Origin: an uncultured Clostridia bacterium
GTDB taxonomy: Bacteria > Bacillota > Clostridia > Oscillospirales > Acutalibacteraceae
DNA: 45,528 nt
Assembly (NCBI GenBank): GCA_944384985.1
Contig: CALWVM010000018.1
Coordinates: 1-45,528 of the forward strand
Reading direction: 5' to 3'
Position 1 is the stretch's first letter, and every line of letters begins with the position of its first letter. Shown one piece after another: positions 14,443-38,755 of the stretch. The notes under the pieces are model-generated. The model made no database searches. It had not been told where the DNA came from and was given only the letters and a program-made list of their open reading frames with translations. Both the position numbers and the translations under genes were made by a program.

Positions 14443-14469
14443 CCGCGCAAAACGCGTACAAAGCAAAAT

Positions 14470-14656
14470 CAACCTGCCCGATGCGAGAACCATACGGTTC
14501 AATATTAACCCAACACCTTTTTTATCGGGAGTCAGAATTCCGAGGCGGTGTGCAGACCTCCCGCATTTTTGCGGACGTTGGGAGTACTAAAACCGAGGAG
14601 AGACACCCACCTGCTTTTTGCAGGTTATTATTAGCCGTGTGCGGTCGGGCGGGGAT
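14470..14656 (+). ncRNA. ssrS: Probable 6S RNA
   Basis: About 185 bases, the usual 6S length. The ends pair as a long closing stem (CCTGCCCGATGCG near 14473 with TGCGGTCGGGCGGGG near 14640-14654). The interior has a large central bubble with GGAGTACTAAAACCGAGG and the GACACCCACCTGC...GCAGGT hairpin characteristic of Firmicute 6S RNAs, and a terminal hairpin (CTCCC...GGGAG). 6S RNA binds the sigma-A holoenzyme active site and mimics an open promoter. The call rests on remembered family features, not on a covariance search. Confidence 0.7.
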
Positions 14657-14664
14657 TTTCGTGC

Positions 14665-23248: not shown

Positions 23249-24109
23249 TTACAGGATGGAGGACAGGTTGCGCATGATGGCGCCCGCGACTTCGGGGCGG
23301 TTCATGGTATAGATGTGGATACCCGAAACGCCGTTGGCGATGAGTTCCACGATCTGCTCGGTGGCGTAGGCGATACCCACCTGTTTGATCGCTTCCGGGT
23401 CATCGGCGAATTTATCAACCATCGTTTTCAGCCGCGTGGGCAGCGTGGTGCCCGACAGCTTGCAGGATCGGGCGATCTGTTTGGCATTCATCACGGGCAT
23501 GATGCCCGCGCAAACGGGGACGTCGATGCCCTTTTTTAGTGCACGATAAAGGAAACTGTATAACGCGGTATTGTCAAAAAACATCTGTGTCACGAGGAAA
23601 TCCACGCCGCATTCCACTTTATGCTTCAGGTTTTCGAGGTCCTCTTCGGGACTTGCCGATTCCACATGCCCTTCCGGATAGCACGCCGCGCCGACGGTAA
23701 AGCCGCCCTCGCTGCGAATCGCCTCCACAAGCTCAGAAGCGTAGCGGTAATGGTCATCGTCGGGCGTGTAATTCTCCGGCAGATCCCCACGCAGCGCCAG
23801 CACGTTGCGCACGCCGCGCGCCTTGAGGTCCATAAGTACGTTGTGCACGGTCTGTTTGTCGCTGGACGCGCATGTCAAATGCGCCATGGCGGGGATGTGC
23901 AGGTCGTTTTCGATATGTGCGGCAATCTTCGGCGTGTTGACGGAAGTGCCGCCGCCCGCGCCGTAGGTCACGCTGATGAAATCCGGAGAAAACGCGGCAA
24001 GCGCGTCCACCGCCGCTTCGACAGGCGCGTACGCCGCGTCGTTTTTCGGCGGAAACACCTCGAACGAAACGACAAGCTGCTTGCTTTGAAATTTTTCCAT
24101 CAAATCCAT
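23249..24109 (-). CDS. metF: 5,10-methylenetetrahydrofolate reductase
   Basis: 286 residues, the length of bacterial MetF. FAD-dependent reduction of methylene-THF to methyl-THF, feeding methionine synthesis (often B12-dependent) or the methyl branch of C1 metabolism. Seen: FEVFPPK near the start, the FISVTYGAGGG motif, HLTC, VLALRGDLP, DFLVTQMFFD, and PVCAGIMPV. No partner (MetV or RnfC2) is adjacent. First gene of the putative four-gene operon running to 21109. Confidence 0.96.
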   Translation of the reverse strand: MDLMEKFQSKQLVVSFEVFPPKNDAAYAPVEAAVDALAAFSPDFISVTYGAGGGTSVNTPKIAAHIENDLHIPAMAHLTCASSDKQTVHNVLMDLKARGVRNVLALRGDLPENYTPDDDHYRYASELVEAIRSEGGFTVGAACYPEGHVESASPEEDLENLKHKVECGVDFLVTQMFFDNTALYSFLYRALKKGIDVPVCAGIMPVMNAKQIARSCKLSGTTLPTRLKTMVDKFADDPEAIKQVGIAYATEQIVELIANGVSGIHIYTMNRPEVAGAIMRNLSSIL

Positions 24110-24198: not shown

Positions 24199-24299
24199 GA
24201 AAAACGGTCGTTTTTTCATATTGCGGACATCGGAATTTACAGTTTGTTAACAAAACGTTTTGAAATGTTCGATTTTGTATGTGCATAGGGTCGAAAAGG

Positions 24300-24333
24300 C
24301 AAAAAGCGCATCCGAAAAGGATACGCTTTTCCA
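24300..24333 (-). terminator. Terminator of the cobalamin-regulated operon
   Basis: Minus-strand AAAAGCGTATCC-TTTT-GGATGCGCTTTTT hairpin directly after the DUF4430 gene stop, ending in a U-tract. Confidence 0.85.
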
Positions 24334-24338
24334 TCGCA

Positions 24339-25055
24339 TTAAAACGGGACGTTCCCAACGTCGCCGGGCGAGCAGGTATATAAAAATTCTACCGTATCGC
24401 CTTCCTGCAACGTGTAATATTTGCTCGAATAATTTAAAAATTCGCCGTTGACGCGGTAAAGCCAGCCGCTTTGTGTCCCGCAGTCGCGTTCCGCAAGCCC
24501 GCCGATGCTGCGCACATAGCCGCCGGAGGTTGCGGAATACACAATGTTGTTTTCCCGCAGTGTTCGCTTCAGCAAATCAAATGCGGATTCCCCCGCTTCG
24601 AATTCCACCGCCGCATTTTGCAGAAAATAGCCGTTTGACGGCAGAACACCGGCAAAATTCGGGTCGTTGAGGAGCCCATATTCCACGGCAGTCTGAAAGC
24701 TGACTGTCAATGTGACGGTGTCGGCGGCGGGTGCGGCAGGCTGCGCGGGCGTCTGCACGGCGGGCGTTTGGGCGGAAGTAGAAGAATTGCCCGCGCCGCT
24801 TTGCGTGCTTTTGTTTTCCTGCTGTCCGCTTTTTGGGTCTTGTGCGCCGTCCACAGCCGGTGCTTGTGTCTGCGCTTCTGCGGCGGCAGAGGCATCGGAA
24901 ATGACAGTCTGCGTTTGCGAAGCCGCTTCAGTCAACAGCGCGGCAGTCGTTGAGGCGGTATCCTCCCCCCTGCCGCAGGCACATAAGAGCAGCGCGCAAA
25001 GCAGTATGGCAGCAAGCCCGCGCAAAATGCGCGTCAAGTGCTTCGCGTTACGCAT
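24339..25055 (-). CDS. DUF4430 lipoprotein (transcobalamin beta-domain-like)
   Basis: 238 residues from the ATG at 25055, chosen because it begins a signal peptide with lipobox LCAC (Cys near 27); it overlaps the upstream gene by 8 bases. A low-complexity Ala/Thr/Gln/Ser linker (about 30-120) is followed by the DUF4430 domain (about 120-238): VTLTVSFQTAVEYGLL, FDLLKRTLRENNIV, YVRSIGGLAERDCG, SGWLYRVNGEFLNYSSKYYTLQEGDTVEFLYT. DUF4430 corresponds in fold to the C-terminal beta-domain of intrinsic factor and transcobalamin. The linker suggests it reaches out from the membrane. B12 binding is inferred from fold plus riboswitch control. Confidence 0.88.
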   Translation of the reverse strand: MRNAKHLTRILRGLAAILLCALLLCACGRGEDTASTTAALLTEAASQTQTVISDASAAAEAQTQAPAVDGAQDPKSGQQENKSTQSGAGNSSTSAQTPAVQTPAQPAAPAADTVTLTVSFQTAVEYGLLNDPNFAGVLPSNGYFLQNAAVEFEAGESAFDLLKRTLRENNIVYSATSGGYVRSIGGLAERDCGTQSGWLYRVNGEFLNYSSKYYTLQEGDTVEFLYTCSPGDVGNVPF

Positions 25056-26175
25056 GCTTTTTTCGCACCACCAATACTGCCGCGGCAGCAAGCATGACTA
25101 AAGCAGCAGCCGTGGGAGCCCCGGCGCCTGTGTTGGGGATGTCTACCGTTTCCGCTGCGCCGGCGGGGTCTGTCCCCTGCTCGGGGGTATCTGTCTGCGA
25201 CTGTGTAGTGGGTCCCGGCGTACGTTCCACATAGGTATACAGCGTCGGTTCACCGTTTTGAAAGCGCTCATAGGCTTCATAAGCCTGTAAGATCTGATAG
25301 GTCGTCAGTGGGTCTTCGGCGTTGGCATAGTTCAGTCCGCCACCGTTGTCCGATAGGAAAATCTGTAACGCCGCCACGGGCGACACGCCGTTTTTGCAGT
25401 ATTCCTCGGCGGTCGGGTCGAGCCCTAATGCACACAATGCGAGGATCACCTGCGCGGTGCTCTCGCCGCTCTGCGTGCCGAACACAGGGCTTCCGAACGC
25501 GCCGGTATCGAACTGCTGGGCTTTGAGGTACACGAGCGCTTTATCCACCGCTTCACGCACGGCTTCATCCGTATCATAATACGGGGCGAACGCCTGCACC
25601 GCCATGGCGGTCGTGTCGCAGTCGGAGGAGATCCCCCAGCCTTCATCTACGCTGCAATACGGGAAACCACCGTCCGGCTGCTGGGCGGCAAGAAGAGTTT
25701 TCACAATGGTTTGTTTTGTGCTGTCAGGGAAATGAAAGCCGGCGCTGAAATTCATAGCCAAAAGCGGGAATGCGAGGCTGCTTAAATACACTTGCGCCGA
25801 ATAATCTACCGCATCGAGCGCTTCGAGCAGGTCATGCCCGCCGATATTCCGAGCGTCCAGCCCGCAGGCGGTCGTGCTCAACACAATGCGCGCAAGGTCG
25901 CTCGGGTAAAGCAAATCAAAGCTGTTTTTTACAGCTTCGTCGATATAGGCGGCATACGCCGCATCGGGCGATTCACCCGCCTGTGCGAGTGTGAAGGCCG
26001 TCCAGTCAATGAGGCTGTCCGGGTAGCTTGTGTCCGTGTAATCGAAGCCGGTGTTTCCCGAGTTTGCCAACCAGGCCGTGACCGCCTGTTTCGGGTTTTG
26101 CGGCGCGGCAAACACCTGCACACAAAAGGCGCAGAGCAGCGCCGCACATAAAAGTGCAGAAATAAATTTTTTCAT
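25048..26175 (-). CDS. Secreted alpha/alpha-barrel (prenyltransferase-repeat) protein with sortase-like tail
   Basis: 375 residues from the ATG at 26175 (AAGGAAG site upstream; longer starts add 39 residues of leader). Signal peptide to about residue 23. Residues about 30-300 hold repeats of the prenyltransferase/squalene-cyclase type: DGGFPYCS...DCDTTAMAVQAFAPY, DTGAFGSP...STAQVILALCALG, GGGLNYANAEDPLTTYQILQAYEAY. The same barrel forms the alpha-domain of intrinsic factor and transcobalamin. A Pro/Thr/Gln linker leads to IPNTG, a hydrophobic helix and RKKHA, a cell-wall sorting-like signal. The gene is directly under a cobalamin riboswitch, which makes corrinoid binding a strong inference; no Cys-locking residues are claimed. 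Confidence 0.88.
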   Translation of the reverse strand: MKKFISALLCAALLCAFCVQVFAAPQNPKQAVTAWLANSGNTGFDYTDTSYPDSLIDWTAFTLAQAGESPDAAYAAYIDEAVKNSFDLLYPSDLARIVLSTTACGLDARNIGGHDLLEALDAVDYSAQVYLSSLAFPLLAMNFSAGFHFPDSTKQTIVKTLLAAQQPDGGFPYCSVDEGWGISSDCDTTAMAVQAFAPYYDTDEAVREAVDKALVYLKAQQFDTGAFGSPVFGTQSGESTAQVILALCALGLDPTAEEYCKNGVSPVAALQIFLSDNGGGLNYANAEDPLTTYQILQAYEAYERFQNGEPTLYTYVERTPGPTTQSQTDTPEQGTDPAGAAETVDIPNTGAGAPTAAALVMLAAAAVLVVRKKHA

Positions 26176-26237
26176 CGTATCGTCTTCCTTTCGTTTCAGT
26201 ATGGTTATGTGTAAACTGCCGTTTTCCCTCCTCCCCG

Positions 26238-26268
26238 CAAAAAAGCGGAGCTCGTGAGAGCTCCGCTT
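26238..26268 (-). terminator. Riboswitch-controlled terminator
   Basis: A perfect 11-bp stem (AAGCGGAGCTC, 26243-26253, with GAGCTCCGCTT, 26258-26268) with a 4-base loop; the minus-strand transcript continues into a U-tract (A run 26239-26244). It lies between the cobalamin aptamer and the first gene, so it is the likely expression platform. Confidence 0.88.
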
Positions 26269-26396
26269 GATGCGAACAAAAGAAAGACGCACTGCGCCTT
26301 AGCCGATATTCGCATACTTCTCTCCCACCGAAAGAATTTTGCTGAAGGCCCGGGAAATTTTGAAGCCGGTTCCGGTTCAAATTTCCCGACCTTCCC

Positions 26397-26574
26397 TTAC
26401 AGGCAGGTCTCCTGGCTTGCGGCATTTCCCGACGCAGACGCCTTCCCAAAGCCGTAGCTTCAGTGGCAAATGGCTGCGCCGCAGCCGCTTACAGTAGCGG
26501 GGGCTGTCACGGATTCGCACCGTGTTCCCTTTTCACTTCGCCCAAAGCGCAAAGCGCTGCGAAGCACCTGTAAG
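26397..26574 (-). ncRNA. Adenosylcobalamin riboswitch
   Basis: The minus-strand RNA has the class hallmarks in order: the P1 5' strand TTACAGG (26567-26573), GAAAAGGGAACACGGTGCGA, ATCCGTGACAGCCCCCGC, TACTGTAAGCGG, the B12 box GCCACTG, and AGCCAGGAGACCTGCC with the P1 3' strand CCTGTAA (26397-26403). Together with the downstream terminator it should switch transcription off when B12 is plentiful. It begins just after the stop of the flavoenzyme gene 26586-29414. Confidence 0.96.
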
Positions 26575-26585
26575 CCGTATAGATT

Positions 26586-29414
26586 TTAATAATTTTCGCA
26601 GAAGTCGTCGATCACCGGAGCGTTATTGTTCCAGCCAAACTGCCCGCCGCCGCGGATCACTTCTTTTGCAATTATAGCACATTCCTTTGCATTTGCAAGC
26701 GCCGGGTACTGCGCTTCCAGTGTTTGCAGCAACTCGTCCGCCTTCGGGGCAGGCGCACCGCAAAGCGCGGCAAGCGCCGCAAGCGTGGTCGGCAGCGCGG
26801 CCTCAAACGCCGCACGCTGGACGGCGCGCGAGCCGTCTGCGCGCAAATAAGTGCCGTTTTGCGCCGTGAACGGCGCGGTGAACAGCTGCTCGGTCGCGGT
26901 TTCCGTATAGGCATTGGAAAGCGCGAGGGTATATTCCGCCGTTATGGCATCAGGCTTTTTACAGTCAAGCAGAATCGCCGCTTTTTCACCTTTGTAAGCG
27001 GACACCGGCGGGATACCCAGAAGCTGAAGTCCTGCAAAGCTCGCACTTTTTTCCGTTACGTCAGCGTAAGCCGCCGGGAAGTGCGCTTTAGCAAATGCGG
27101 CTTCCTCGAGCGTCGCCACGGGGCCGAGCACGACGGCAACACTGTCGCCGTAGGACGCGATTTTCGCACAAAACGCCGCCATCTGTTCTTTCGTTGCAGG
27201 CTGCATTTGCGTATTCGCCGCCAAAATACCGAAACGGCCGCCTTTGCACAACAGACCTTTCTCGCCGGCGGGCAGCGAACGCATGACGGTCTTGCCGAGG
27301 AAGCGAACATCCGTCTCGCACAGCGCCGCGCAGAAATTGCAGACCGAGCGCACGCTGTTTTCCTTAACAGGGACCGCTTTTTTGACCGGCTGTTTTTCGC
27401 GAAGCGCACCGGTCGGGCAGACGGTCACGCACTGCCCGCAGAAGATGCAGCTGCTCTTTTCGAGCGGCAGAGAGAACTCGGGGCTGACGAGGGTATCAAA
27501 CCCGCGTCCCAAAAGCCCTAAATTCGTTTTGCCCATGACTTCGTCGCACACGCGCACGCAAAGCCCGCACAAAATGCACTTGTCGGCATTGCGCGCAATC
27601 AGGGAATTGACATCCTCTTCATTGCGATGGTGTTTTTCCCCGGCAAAGCGTTCGGGGTGAACGTCGTAGGCGTTTGCGTATTCAATCAATTTGCATTCGT
27701 AATAATCATGGCAGCCGCACCCTAAGCAGCGCATGGCTTCTTTCTTTGCGGCTTCTTGTGTAAGGCCGAGCGAAACCTCGCCAAAGTCGGCGCGGCGTTC
27801 AGAAGCCGGACGCACAGGCACCTCTACACGCGGCGCTTTGGGGAATTTTTCGAAAAATTCCACGGGCAGTGTGCGCTCCACAAGGAAGGGCTTTTTATAG
27901 CGCGCTTCTTCGCCGTTTAAGTAACGATCGATCACAAGGGATGCTTTCTGCGCTTCGCCGATCGCGGCAACGGCGATAGACGCGCCGCGGTTGGTCATGT
28001 CGCCCACCGCAAAGACGTTGGGCAAAGAGGTGCGGAACGTCTCTTCGTCGGCGGCGACGGTGCTGCGCTGGGTCGCCTCGACCGATTCAAAACCCGTAAG
28101 GTCGGGGTGCTGGCCGATCGCCATAATCACGGTATCAAATTCCGCATTCTCCACCGCGCCCGCAATCGGTTCCGGGCGGCGTCTGCCGCTCGCATCCGGT
28201 GCGCCGAGCTGCATTTTCTGCAAGGTCGCCTGCACGGTATCGCCGCAGTCCTTGAATTCGATCGGCGTCGTCAGGAAACGGAATTCCACACCCTCTTCGG
28301 TCGCTTCGCGGATCTCCACATCCTCGGCGGGCATTTCCTCGCGCGAACGCCGATAGAGCACCGTGACCTGCTTTGCACCCAGACGCACCGCCGTGCGGCA
28401 AGCGTCCATGGCGGTATTGCCGCCGCCGACAACCGCCACGCGGTCGCCGATAGGCATTGGGTCACCGAGGGCTACGGTGCGCAGGAAGTCGATCCCGCCC
28501 ACCACGCGGGAGGCGTCCTCGCCTGGCACGCGCATTTGACTGGAGCGCCATGCGCCCGCCGCGAGCACCACGGCATCATATTCGCTGCGAAGCGCATCGA
28601 GCGTGATCTGCTCGCCGACACGCACATTGTTCTGCATTTCTACGCCGAGCGCGGCGATCTGCGCAATTTCCCGATCCAAAAGGGCTTTGGGCAGACGGTA
28701 TTCCGGGATGCCGTAGCGCAGCATGCCACCCATTTTCGGCATGGCGTCCAAGACTGTGACCGCATGACCCTGACGGCGCAGGAAATACGCCGCGGTAAGC
28801 CCGCCGGGGCCGCCGCCGACAACTACGACGCGTTTGCCCGTATCGGGTTCCACAGGCGGAACGTACGGCGTGCTGCTCGCCATATCCATATCGGAAGCAA
28901 ACGCTTTTAGCGCTGCGATGGAGACCGGTTCCTCCACGAACCGGCGGCGGCATTCCTTTTCACAAGGGTGCGGGCACACGCGCCCGATGGACGAAGGCAG
29001 CGGGATTTTTTCTTTGATAAGCCTTGTCGCTTCCGTGTATTCGCCGTTGGCGATCATTCCCACATACCCCTGGCAGTCCGTACCCGCAGGGCATGCCTTG
29101 GTGCAGGGTGCCTTGCAGTCACCGTCATGGTCGGACAGCAAAAGCTCCAGCGCCATTTTGCGTGCACGTACGACGCGCTCGGTGTCGGTATGCACGACCA
29201 TGCCGTCGCGCGCTTTCGTCGCGCAGGCGCGCTGCAATTTCGGCGTGCCTTCGACTTCGACGACGCACAGCCCGCATGCGCCGTAAATTTCTACACGGCC
29301 GTCAAAGCAGAGGTTTGGGATCTTTAAACCGTTTTTGGTGGCGGCGGAAAGCAGCGTGGCACCCTCCTCCACCTGTAACGGATGGTTATCTATGGTAATT
29401 TGAATCAAACTCAT
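26586..29414 (-). CDS. NuoG/GltD-like iron-sulfur flavoprotein, third subunit of a NADH/ferredoxin/NAD(P)H enzyme
   Basis: 942 residues from the ATG at 29414, which overlaps the NuoF-like stop (ATGA). Domains: an N-terminal 2Fe-2S ferredoxin (about 1-80, CGLC); a GltD/Nfn-type Cys cluster region (CKAPCTKACPAGTDC, about 98-160); an FAD-binding Rossmann fold (VVVVGGGPGGLTAAYFLRR, about 198); an NAD(P) site (VAVVGGGNTAMDACRTA, about 331); two 4Fe-4S sites (CILCGLCVRVC, CIFCGQCVTVC); and a molybdopterin-type 4Fe-4S segment (CNFCAALCETD...CKGG) with a shortened tail lacking a visible active site. No hydrogenase H-cluster motif is present. An NAD(P)H:ferredoxin, possibly bifurcating, role is inferred. 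Confidence 0.88.
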   Translation of the reverse strand: MSLIQITIDNHPLQVEEGATLLSAATKNGLKIPNLCFDGRVEIYGACGLCVVEVEGTPKLQRACATKARDGMVVHTDTERVVRARKMALELLLSDHDGDCKAPCTKACPAGTDCQGYVGMIANGEYTEATRLIKEKIPLPSSIGRVCPHPCEKECRRRFVEEPVSIAALKAFASDMDMASSTPYVPPVEPDTGKRVVVVGGGPGGLTAAYFLRRQGHAVTVLDAMPKMGGMLRYGIPEYRLPKALLDREIAQIAALGVEMQNNVRVGEQITLDALRSEYDAVVLAAGAWRSSQMRVPGEDASRVVGGIDFLRTVALGDPMPIGDRVAVVGGGNTAMDACRTAVRLGAKQVTVLYRRSREEMPAEDVEIREATEEGVEFRFLTTPIEFKDCGDTVQATLQKMQLGAPDASGRRRPEPIAGAVENAEFDTVIMAIGQHPDLTGFESVEATQRSTVAADEETFRTSLPNVFAVGDMTNRGASIAVAAIGEAQKASLVIDRYLNGEEARYKKPFLVERTLPVEFFEKFPKAPRVEVPVRPASERRADFGEVSLGLTQEAAKKEAMRCLGCGCHDYYECKLIEYANAYDVHPERFAGEKHHRNEEDVNSLIARNADKCILCGLCVRVCDEVMGKTNLGLLGRGFDTLVSPEFSLPLEKSSCIFCGQCVTVCPTGALREKQPVKKAVPVKENSVRSVCNFCAALCETDVRFLGKTVMRSLPAGEKGLLCKGGRFGILAANTQMQPATKEQMAAFCAKIASYGDSVAVVLGPVATLEEAAFAKAHFPAAYADVTEKSASFAGLQLLGIPPVSAYKGEKAAILLDCKKPDAITAEYTLALSNAYTETATEQLFTAPFTAQNGTYLRADGSRAVQRAAFEAALPTTLAALAALCGAPAPKADELLQTLEAQYPALANAKECAIIAKEVIRGGGQFGWNNNAPVIDDFCENY

Positions 29415-31162
29415 GCGTTTACCTCCACGGCGCCGAAGTTGCAGTTCTCTGCACACTTACCGCACTTGATGCAAAGCGCCGGATCGATCTTGTGCGGTTT
29501 TCTGACTTCGCCCGTAATCGCCCCGACCGGGCAGCCGCGCGCACATTTGGTGCAGCCGACGCACTTTTCGGGATTGATGGAATACGTCGTAAGCGCCGCG
29601 CATTCGCCCGCAGGGCAGCGTTTGTCGCGGATATGCGCCTCAAATTCGTCGCGGAAATAGCGGATGGTCGTGAGCACAGGGTTCGGCGCGGTCTGCCCCA
29701 AGCCGCACAGCGCGCCGTCCTTGATGCCGGCACAAAGCTCTTCTAAAAGCTCGATATCGCCCTCCTGCCCCGCCCCTTCGGTAATGCGGGTCAGGACTTC
29801 GAGCATCCGTTTTGTACCAAGGCGGCAGTGCACGCACTTGCCGCAGGACTCTTTCGCGGTGAAATCGAGGAAAAATTTCGCCATGCCGACCATGCAGGTG
29901 CTTTCGTCCATGACGACCATACCGCCCGACCCCATGATCGCGCCCGTAGCACCCAGCGCCTTGTAGTCGATCACGGTATCCAAAAGGCTTTCGGGGATAC
30001 ACCCGCCCGACGGGCCGCCCATCTGGACCGCTTTAAAGCGTTTGCCGTCGCGGATGCCGCCGCCGATGTCAAAGATCACGTCCCTAAGCGTTTTGCCCAT
30101 GGGGATCTCCACAAGCCCGCCGCGGCGGATCTTACCGGTCAAAGCAAAAACTTTTGTGCCTTTGCTGCCCTCGGTACCCATTGCGGCGAACGCGGCACCG
30201 CCGTTTTCGAGGATCCACGGGACGTTGGCAAAGGTTTCTACATTGTTGATATTCGAGGGCTTGTGCCAATAGCCCGCTTCTGCGGGGAACGGCGGCTTTA
30301 AGCGCGGCATACCGCGGTTGCCTTCCAAAGATTCGATCAGCGCGGTCTCCTCACCACAGACGAACGCGCCCGCGCCCGCTTTGATGCGCATTTTGCAGGA
30401 AAAGCTGCTGCCGAAAATATTTTCGCCGAGATAGCCTTTTTCCTCCGCCTGCCGGATCGCTTTTTCCAGCCGCTTGATGGCAAGCGGATATTCCGCACGC
30501 ACATAGACGATCGCCTCTTTGGCGCCGATGGCGTATGCGCCGATGAGCATACCCTCGATCAGCCCGTGCGGGTCGCCTTCAATAACGGCACGGTCCATGA
30601 ACGCGCCGGGGTCGCCCTCGTCGGCGTTGCAGATAAGGTATTTTTCCTCACCCGCGGAATTACGCGCAGCGTTCCATTTGAACCAGGTCGGGAAGCCCGC
30701 GCCGCCGCGCCCGGCGAGCCCGGAAGCCTTGATCTCCTCGATAACCGCTTCGGGCGTCATATCAAAAAGCGCGCGGCGGATTGCGGTGTAACCGCCCGCA
30801 TTTTCGTATTCTTCGATGCTTTCGGGGTTAAGCACGCCGCAGTGCCGCAGGGCGATGCGCGTCTGCTTCTCCAAAAACTGCGCGTCCTCATCGGAAATTT
30901 TCAAATCCTCGACCGCCGCAAGGTCATTGCTTTTCACCGCTTCGGCAATGCGCGGTGCGTCCGTCTCCTGCACGCGCACAAGGCGGGTCAGCGCGCCGTT
31001 TTCCACATAGATGTCCACGATCGGTTCGGCAAAGCACATGCCGTTGCAGCCGGTAATGGAAAGTGTCGCATTTTGGGGCATGCGGCTCTCCAGCGCGTCA
31101 TACACTTTCTGTGCGCCCGCCGCGATGCCGCACGAGCCCGCGCCCACAACGATCTTCGTCAT
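29411..31162 (-). CDS. NuoF-like NADH-binding FMN iron-sulfur subunit
   Basis: 583 residues from the ATG at 31162 (one base after the upstream TGA). Domains: a thioredoxin-like 2Fe-2S part (CGIAAGAQ..., ITGCNGMCFAEP, about 1-110); the NuoF core with FMN/NADH motifs GRGGAGFPTWFKW, CNADEGDPGAFMDR and GEETALIESLEGNRGMPR; an SLBB domain; the ESCGKCVHCRLGTKR 4Fe-4S site; and a C-terminal pair of ferredoxin clusters (CVGCTKCARGCPVGAI, CIKCGKCAENCNFGAVE). This is the layout of HydB and related soluble flavoenzyme subunits, where NADH meets FMN. It pairs with the NuoE-like gene upstream and the GltD-fusion downstream. Confidence 0.94.
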   Translation of the reverse strand: MTKIVVGAGSCGIAAGAQKVYDALESRMPQNATLSITGCNGMCFAEPIVDIYVENGALTRLVRVQETDAPRIAEAVKSNDLAAVEDLKISDEDAQFLEKQTRIALRHCGVLNPESIEEYENAGGYTAIRRALFDMTPEAVIEEIKASGLAGRGGAGFPTWFKWNAARNSAGEEKYLICNADEGDPGAFMDRAVIEGDPHGLIEGMLIGAYAIGAKEAIVYVRAEYPLAIKRLEKAIRQAEEKGYLGENIFGSSFSCKMRIKAGAGAFVCGEETALIESLEGNRGMPRLKPPFPAEAGYWHKPSNINNVETFANVPWILENGGAAFAAMGTEGSKGTKVFALTGKIRRGGLVEIPMGKTLRDVIFDIGGGIRDGKRFKAVQMGGPSGGCIPESLLDTVIDYKALGATGAIMGSGGMVVMDESTCMVGMAKFFLDFTAKESCGKCVHCRLGTKRMLEVLTRITEGAGQEGDIELLEELCAGIKDGALCGLGQTAPNPVLTTIRYFRDEFEAHIRDKRCPAGECAALTTYSINPEKCVGCTKCARGCPVGAITGEVRKPHKIDPALCIKCGKCAENCNFGAVEVNA

Positions 31163-31163
31163 A

Positions 31164-31679
31164 TCAAGCGCCCTCCTTTGCCGCGGCGGCAAGCTCCGCC
31201 AAAATCTGTTTGGTCTTATCGGGCGTAAGGCGGCCGTATGTCTCGTCGTTAATCATCATCACGGGCGAAAGGCTGCAGCACCCTAAGCAAGCGACATTTT
31301 TAAGCGTAAAAAGCCCGTCGGCGGTCGTTTCGCCATCCTTTATGCCAAGCGTTTCCGTAATGGTCTTTTCGATTACGTCCGAACCGTTGACGTGGCATGC
31401 CGTCCCTTTGCAGAGCATAATCAGGTATTTCCCGACCGGTTGCAGACGGAACTGCGTATAAAACGTGGCGACGCCCATGATCTTGGCAGGCTTTACACCT
31501 GTGCGCTCCGAAATATACCGAATCACATCCTGCGGCAGATAGCCGTAAATCTCCTGCGCGTGCTGCAGGATCGTAATCAGGCTGCCGGGGACGTCGGCGT
31601 ATGTATCCAAAACGCCGTCCAAAAGCGACAGATCGCTTCTTTGGGCCTTACAAGCACAATCCATTCTCTGTTCCTCCAT
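31164..31679 (-). CDS. NuoE-like 2Fe-2S subunit
   Basis: 171 residues from the ATG at 31679 (AAAGGGA 7 bases upstream; the longer start has none). Family hallmarks: LITILQHAQEIYGYLPQDVI, GVATFYTQF, and the 2Fe-2S ligands CKGTACH...NVACLGCCSLSPVM. It is the small electron-relay partner of the NuoF-like subunit in soluble NADH-dependent complexes (HydC/FdhC type). First gene of a three-gene operon with promoter at 31722-31750. Confidence 0.94.
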   Translation of the reverse strand: MEEQRMDCACKAQRSDLSLLDGVLDTYADVPGSLITILQHAQEIYGYLPQDVIRYISERTGVKPAKIMGVATFYTQFRLQPVGKYLIMLCKGTACHVNGSDVIEKTITETLGIKDGETTADGLFTLKNVACLGCCSLSPVMMINDETYGRLTPDKTKQILAELAAAAKEGA

Positions 31680-31721
31680 GATTTTCCCTTTCTGTTTTCC
31701 ATGTGAAAACAGGCTTTTATA

Positions 31722-31750
31722 ATCATAATACATCTATACAAAAAATGCAA
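31722..31750 (-). promoter_or_regulatory. Promoter of the NuoE/NuoF/GltD-fusion operon
   Basis: Minus-strand TTGCAT (31745-31750), 17-base spacer, TATGAT (31722-31727), about 45 bases before the start codon. Confidence 0.6.
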
Positions 31751-38245: not shown

Positions 38246-38755
38246 TTAAAACTCCAGCCCTTCGACGGCGGCTATACCGCGGTCATACGGGTGGCGCAGG
38301 CAGTCAATTTTTGAAATGCAGTCTGCCGACGCGCAAATTGCTTCAGGAAAAAACCGACCCGTCAACGCGACGTGCACCGTGTCGGGCAGCGTCTGCAAAA
38401 GATCTAAAAGCGCGGTCTCGGGGAACATGCCGTTTTCGAGCGTGCCTCCCATTTCATCCGCAATCAGCAGAAAATCCTCTGCCCGAGGAATGAAAAACTG
38501 TGGGACAACTTGCGCCGTGCGTGCGGTAAAATCCGCTTTACCAGCATCATCGAGCTGAAAGAAAAAGGGAATGCCGGGGTGCGCAAGGGTTATCTCCGCA
38601 GAAAAGTACTTCGCGAGCGCTTCAAATTCTGCGGAAACGTCCGGTTTTAAAAGCTGCAGCACCCGCACGCGCTTGCCGTGCGAAGCCGCGCGAAGCGCTA
38701 AACCCGCTGCCGCTGTGGTTTTCCCCACGCCGTCGCCCATATAAATTCGAAGCAT
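38246..38755 (-). CDS. cobO: Cob(I)yrinic acid a,c-diamide adenosyltransferase, CobO/BtuR type
   Basis: 169 residues from the ATG at 38755 (GAGGAG 8 bases upstream; the longer frame adds 24 residues without a site). The P-loop GDGVGKTTAAAGLALRA near residues 7-23 and the central LLIADEMGG and VHVALTGRFFPE segments are those of the CobO/CobA adenosyltransferases, which put the 5'-deoxyadenosyl group on cob(I)alamin or its precursors, making the AdoCbl sensed by the riboswitch at 26397-26574. No other cobalamin-synthesis gene is in the window. First gene of a probable operon with the glycosidases. Confidence 0.88.
   Translation of the reverse strand: MLRIYMGDGVGKTTAAAGLALRAASHGKRVRVLQLLKPDVSAEFEALAKYFSAEITLAHPGIPFFFQLDDAGKADFTARTAQVVPQFFIPRAEDFLLIADEMGGTLENGMFPETALLDLLQTLPDTVHVALTGRFFPEAICASADCISKIDCLRHPYDRGIAAVEGLEF

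Follow-up and report, generated by a model that had tools for sequence, protein, structure and literature searches.

The vertebrate cobalamin carriers intrinsic factor (IF), transcobalamin (TC), and haptocorrin (HC) (structures 2pmv, 2bb5, and 4kki) combine an alpha/alpha toroid with a DUF4430-type beta-grasp domain, DUF4430 being placed within the C-terminal region of the TCN proteins (PMC4350170). Here we describe a two-gene locus on a 45,528-nucleotide contig of an uncultured Clostridia bacterium of the Acutalibacteraceae (assembly GCA_944384985.1, contig CALWVM010000018.1; the whole of this stretch is called the window), in which a cobalamin riboswitch precedes the genes for an exported toroid protein and a DUF4430 lipoprotein. 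The pair has the domains of the vertebrate carriers in the same order; it differs from them in being divided between two genes and two anchors, in being bound to a bacterial surface, and in being a predicted binder only. We put at roughly 0.8 the probability that it is a corrinoid-scavenging surface system, in which the toroid and DUF4430 proteins clamp a corrinoid in the manner of IF and feed it to the energy-coupling factor (ECF) importer ECF-CbrT. If so, some Gram-positive bacteria take up B12 by the same molecular clamp as animals.

Bacterial proteins of this general type have been described before. Burroughs et al. 2007 (PMC1796856) report secreted, transcobalamin-like SLBB domains with a toroid fused N- or C-terminally, encoded in operons with CbiO/CbiQ; the hosts usually lacked key B12 synthesis enzymes, several of the proteins carried Gram-positive anchors, and both B12 scavenging and a transfer to animals were predicted. 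The window differs in that the toroid and SLBB domains are encoded by two neighboring genes, with the ECF genes on a different contig, and in having a documented riboswitch; neither "riboswitch" nor "S component" was found by a word search of the main text of that study (PMC1796856). The general idea has been in print since 2007, and two separate genes are a common arrangement in the order. What is added here is the riboswitch statistics, the linkage to CbrT, a whole-protein alignment of a natural fusion with IF, and a genome whose importer genes lie apart from the pair. No experiment on a bacterial pair of this kind turned up in the literature searched, which excludes most subscription papers and all preprints; comparison supports the window pair as a new member of a class so far known, it appears, from prediction.

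ECF vitamin importers are described as using a membrane S component as their substrate-binding protein; if our reading is true, one of them would have a dedicated extracellular capture complex. The ECF-CbrT cluster of L. delbrueckii is nrdJ-cbrS-cbrT-pduO, and the passages on it that we consulted mention no extracellular toroid/DUF4430 pair (PMC5997447). The likeness lies in the importer itself, since a CbrT-like S component with EcfT and EcfAA' stands beside barrel (toroid) and DUF4430 genes in relatives and is present in this genome. The surface lipoproteins of Bacteroides resemble the window pair in that B12 is captured at the cell surface in gut bacteria (PMC6143338). These lipoproteins (BtuG) have a different architecture and belong to an outer-membrane BtuB system.

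The gene pair and its riboswitch

The operon, the riboswitch, and both hairpins occupy the minus strand (Table 1). RF00174 has no second match in the 2.12-Mb, 97.67% complete genome, and the B12 box of the aptamer, at 26402, has zero mismatches to the consensus. Between the aptamer and the toroid gene lies a terminator-like hairpin that none of 200 shuffled sequences matched in folding energy. Both this hairpin and the one closing the operon were chosen by eye; a consensus terminator scan of both strands (15 sites, 5.7 expected) listed neither, because the stem takes up part of the T run and leaves too few tail Ts. With that omission by the scan, an RF00174 aptamer with a transcription terminator lies upstream of two overlapping genes, as the first-pass annotation of this DNA had described, with the right coordinates; the overlap is 8 nt.

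Table 1. Features of the locus and its surroundings, with related upstream genes. Positions are those of the window unless prefixed by the label of a stretch from a relative.
Feature	Position	Strand	Evidence or remark
MetF (methylenetetrahydrofolate reductase)	23249..24109	-	TIGR00676 above cut-off
Hairpin closing the two-gene operon, after the DUF4430 gene	24290..24345	-	-19.7 kcal/mol, z -4.1
Lipoprotein of 238 aa with a DUF4430 domain (SLBB beta-grasp, like the transcobalamin C terminus)	24339..25055	-	ATG start; PF14478
Secreted 375-aa protein with an alpha/alpha toroid (barrel)	25048..26175	-	ATG start; C-terminal IPNTG-transmembrane-RKKHA tail
Terminator-like hairpin with T run, located between the aptamer and the toroid gene	26232..26275	-	-26.3 kcal/mol, z -5.4
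Cobalamin riboswitch aptamer RF00174	26385..26586	-	131.4 bits, E 5.9e-33; gathering score 31.5
CobA/BtuR-type corrinoid adenosyltransferase	38249..38755	-	PF02572 116.8 bits; 12 kb from the pair, same contig
Protein of the 230- to 308-aa class upstream of fusion or barrel gene	L079:684-1607		
Same class	L104:8111-8980		
Same class	L076:6236-7018		
Same class	L074:8564-9373		
Same class	L078:7111-7905		
Same class	L107:5456-6148		

The toroid gene probably begins at the ATG at 26175 and not at the GTG of the longer listed open reading frame (ORF). Its product has, by eye, a signal peptide-like N terminus, and its C-terminal tail scores just under the cut-offs of the anchor models; the genome has two sortase matches, and the protein may be held in the wall or in the membrane. 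The toroid scores 14.4 bits against Pfam Prenyltrans, under the 26.5 cut-off, and an AlphaFold2 model of residues 1 to 319 (pLDDT 88.9) has a fold matching the toroid of TC, HC, and IF. The DUF4430 protein scores 58.7 bits against PF14478 (cut-off, 23.8), belongs to the transcobalamin-like SLBB/DUF4430 clade, and is the only DUF4430 match in the genome. A low-complexity linker of about 85 residues separates the domain from a lipobox (PS51257-type expression) that is also present in the corresponding proteins of two Clostridia metagenome-assembled genomes (MAGs). These two loci (L113 and L114) retain the RF00174 riboswitch, both genes, and the downstream MetF gene; between them and the window the DUF4430 domain is 82 to 84% identical and the linker 41 to 44%. 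The initial description of a secreted alpha/alpha barrel with an IPNTG-helix-RKKHA tail and of a DUF4430 lipoprotein on a linker was thus accurate.

The best matches of the toroid in both fold and sequence are class II terpene cyclases, and a DCDTT motif around residues 185 to 189 sits at the place of the DxDD or DxDTT of these enzymes, and resembles the DxDTT of the non-canonical ones. The toroid could on this basis be a secreted or cryptic terpene cyclase-like enzyme whose link to B12 is regulatory only. We give this very little credence: the signal peptide-like start would direct the protein to the cell exterior and so away from prenyl diphosphates; there is a single toroid, compared with two in class II cyclases; and it has a DUF4430 partner. 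Its relatives, moreover, mostly carry D-x-D-x-T with a variable fourth position, and some of them are fused to DUF4430 in a protein that is IF-like as a whole. Possibly the DxDTT motif is common to such toroids and has here been put to use in contacting a corrinoid.

Intrinsic factor-like fusions and arrangement in relatives

Three PDB profile searches (alignments A1, A2, and A3) gave no sequence-level link to TC or IF, with no TC, IF, or HC chain among the matches at E values up to 10. Natural toroid-DUF4430 fusions in relatives of the same order connect the window pair with the vertebrate carriers. We modeled one of these without templates, from an alignment (A4) of 13 distinct proteins in which one gene was entered twice (rows L073 and L028). 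The first 15 Foldseek matches of the model were TC, HC, and IF, and its alignment with IF extends through both domains. This fusion is 31% identical to the window's toroid and 33% identical to its DUF4430. In the model, strands 417-420 and 424-428 come after the helix 402-413; the window DUF4430 protein aligns at this place. These comparisons support the proposal of the first-pass annotation that the pair corresponds to the two halves of an IF/TC-type protein.

To describe how widely the arrangement occurs, we used 40 stretches from relatives, a biased sample in that each was selected for containing a hit to the barrel, to DUF4430, or to the riboswitch, and two stretches came from one genome in some cases. 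Both domains are present in 31 of the 40, as a fusion in 18, as separate genes no more than 1.5 kb apart on the same strand in 19, and in both forms in 6. With separate genes in 19 of 40 stretches, the two-gene form is therefore common; the split into two proteins proposed for this bacterium is not peculiar to it. EcfT, EcfAA', and/or a CbrT-like S component are found no farther than 3 kb away, on the same strand, in 23 of the 31 two-domain stretches, and near either domain in 25 of all 40, a frequent gene order being barrel, DUF4430, EcfT, EcfAA', CbrT. No ECF genes lie near the pair in the window or in the two MAG stretches.

This survey also bears on whether the two chains act together. Both proteins might be corrinoid related without forming a joint clamp, the DUF4430 lipoprotein alone capturing a corrinoid or docking to CbrT and the toroid binding a wall glycan or a carrier. 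The two are, after all, separate chains with different anchors, and in two stretches (L086 and L091) DUF4430 genes stand beside ECF genes with no barrel in the stretch. Elsewhere (L107 and L109) barrel genes have no adjacent DUF4430 gene, although each of these genomes (G077 and G131) has one on another contig, and a protein table for L. rhamnosus labels one entry "additional lipoprotein component of putative cobalamin ECF transporter" (PMC9963975). Against this stand the one-protein form in 18 of 40 stretches and the match of one fusion to IF and TC over both domains, so that independent action of the two proteins appears unlikely.

Control by B12 was assessed in 50 genomes chosen by hand for a barrel hit from 85, some of the 85 matching the profile only in its low-complexity linker. 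RF00174 was found at 48 sites in 32 of the 50, the other 18 having no match. Thirty of the 48 riboswitches (in 27 genomes) lie at most 4 kb upstream of a barrel gene on the same strand, where at most 0.1 would be expected; none of the 48 lies at the same distance downstream of a barrel gene, and none on the opposite strand. Barrel genes of relatives are thus downstream of cobalamin riboswitches far above chance, in agreement with the B12 control first proposed for the pair.

Several observations in the relatives stand apart. In six of them, a protein of 230 to 308 aa is encoded directly upstream of the fusion or barrel gene (Table 1), and in L079 it sits between the riboswitch and the fusion. 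These proteins have weak, below-cut-off matches to CarboxypepD_reg, DUF4198, or an anchor motif and nothing stronger; they may constitute a third component. At L077:11028-11738, a tandem pair of cobalamin riboswitches precedes the gene for a 1,150-aa toroid protein. Another stretch (L087; G055:C1:176000-195000) contains a 2,490-aa ORF with DUF4430 near its C-terminal end and a cobalamin riboswitch close by, in a genome (G055) with eight RF00174 matches.

Importer, B12 economy, and proposed mechanism

The transporter had been expected elsewhere in the genome and to be BtuFCD. The first part holds, as ECF-CbrT genes are found on contig C6, and the second does not: no FecCD/BtuC match exceeds the cut-off in the 97.67% complete genome, one falling below it, so BtuFCD is probably not the importer. 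Among five ECF S-component matches, one lies at the end of C6, after an EcfT-type ORF and a double ATPase. This ORF scores as EcfT in the operons of relatives, and the double ATPase matches ECF ATPase models best, at scores under the cut-off. The best match of this S component is 6fnp (E 5.6e-11), the structure of ECF-CbrT (PMC5997447). It also scores 167 to 297 bits against eight S components of barrel/DUF4430 loci; the other four (L035 to L038), which reach at most 10.4 bits against these operon S components and one of which (L035) is RibU-like, were rejected as the B12 component. With EcfT, EcfA/A', and a CbrT-like S component all in the genome, the importer is most likely ECF-CbrT, encoded away from the pair.

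The host itself seems unable to make vitamin B12, to judge from CbiC, the sole marker of de novo synthesis searched for, which has no match in the genome. The genome search likewise gave no PduO-type adenosyltransferase. The single protein over the B12-binding cut-off is MetH-like (named by reading its sequence). The CbrT-like S component, the absence of a CbiC match, the CobA-type enzyme, and the MetH-like protein thus suggest that the organism scavenges B12 and imports it through ECF-CbrT.

The same evidence speaks to the identity of the ligand. The toroid plus DUF4430 fold does not by itself settle which ligand is bound, and L. delbrueckii ECF-CbrT also imports cobinamide (PMC5997447). Some other corrinoid or tetrapyrrole, such as cobinamide, might therefore be the ligand in place of cobalamin. 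The riboswitch ahead of the pair belongs to the cobalamin family, however, and the CobA-type enzyme and MetH-like protein are present with no CbiC match; we regard a ligand other than cobalamin as quite improbable.

Corrinoid scavenging by the pair would proceed as follows. At low cellular cobalamin, the riboswitch would let RNA polymerase past the hairpin, and the pair would be made. The toroid protein would be exported and retained by its IPNTG/transmembrane tail, and the DUF4430 protein would be lipid anchored on its flexible linker. A corrinoid would then rest with one face against the toroid, the beta-grasp domain would shut on the other, as in IF and TC, and the complex would present the corrinoid to ECF-CbrT for import, to serve MetH and adenosylation by CobA. 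In a more specific version, which we judge a little better than an even bet, the pair is a two-piece, ligand-closed intrinsic factor: the lipid-anchored beta-grasp and the tail-anchored toroid would meet only around the corrinoid and pass it to the ECF transporter, the B12 carriers of animals being the fused, secreted version. If true, the separate genes for the halves make the clamp experimentally separable.

Neighboring genes in the window

The MetF gene follows the pair in the window and in both MAG loci (L113 and L114), where it is 91 to 92% identical. Its product would supply methyltetrahydrofolate to B12-dependent MetH. Membership in the operon is not favored because a hairpin stands between, and MetF is probably on a separate transcript; a shared transcript is still conceivable because MetF holds the same place in both MAGs. 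The CobA-type enzyme would make adenosylcobalamin.

Among the genes upstream of the riboswitch (window 26589-31733, minus strand) is one for a flavin/iron-sulfur oxidoreductase of 942 aa that contains Fer2_4, Fer4, and GltD-like domains and together with the two preceding ORFs gives the impression of an NADH-linked redox complex. A 6S RNA match at 14468-14659 on the plus strand barely exceeds its gathering score (47.7 versus 46.4).
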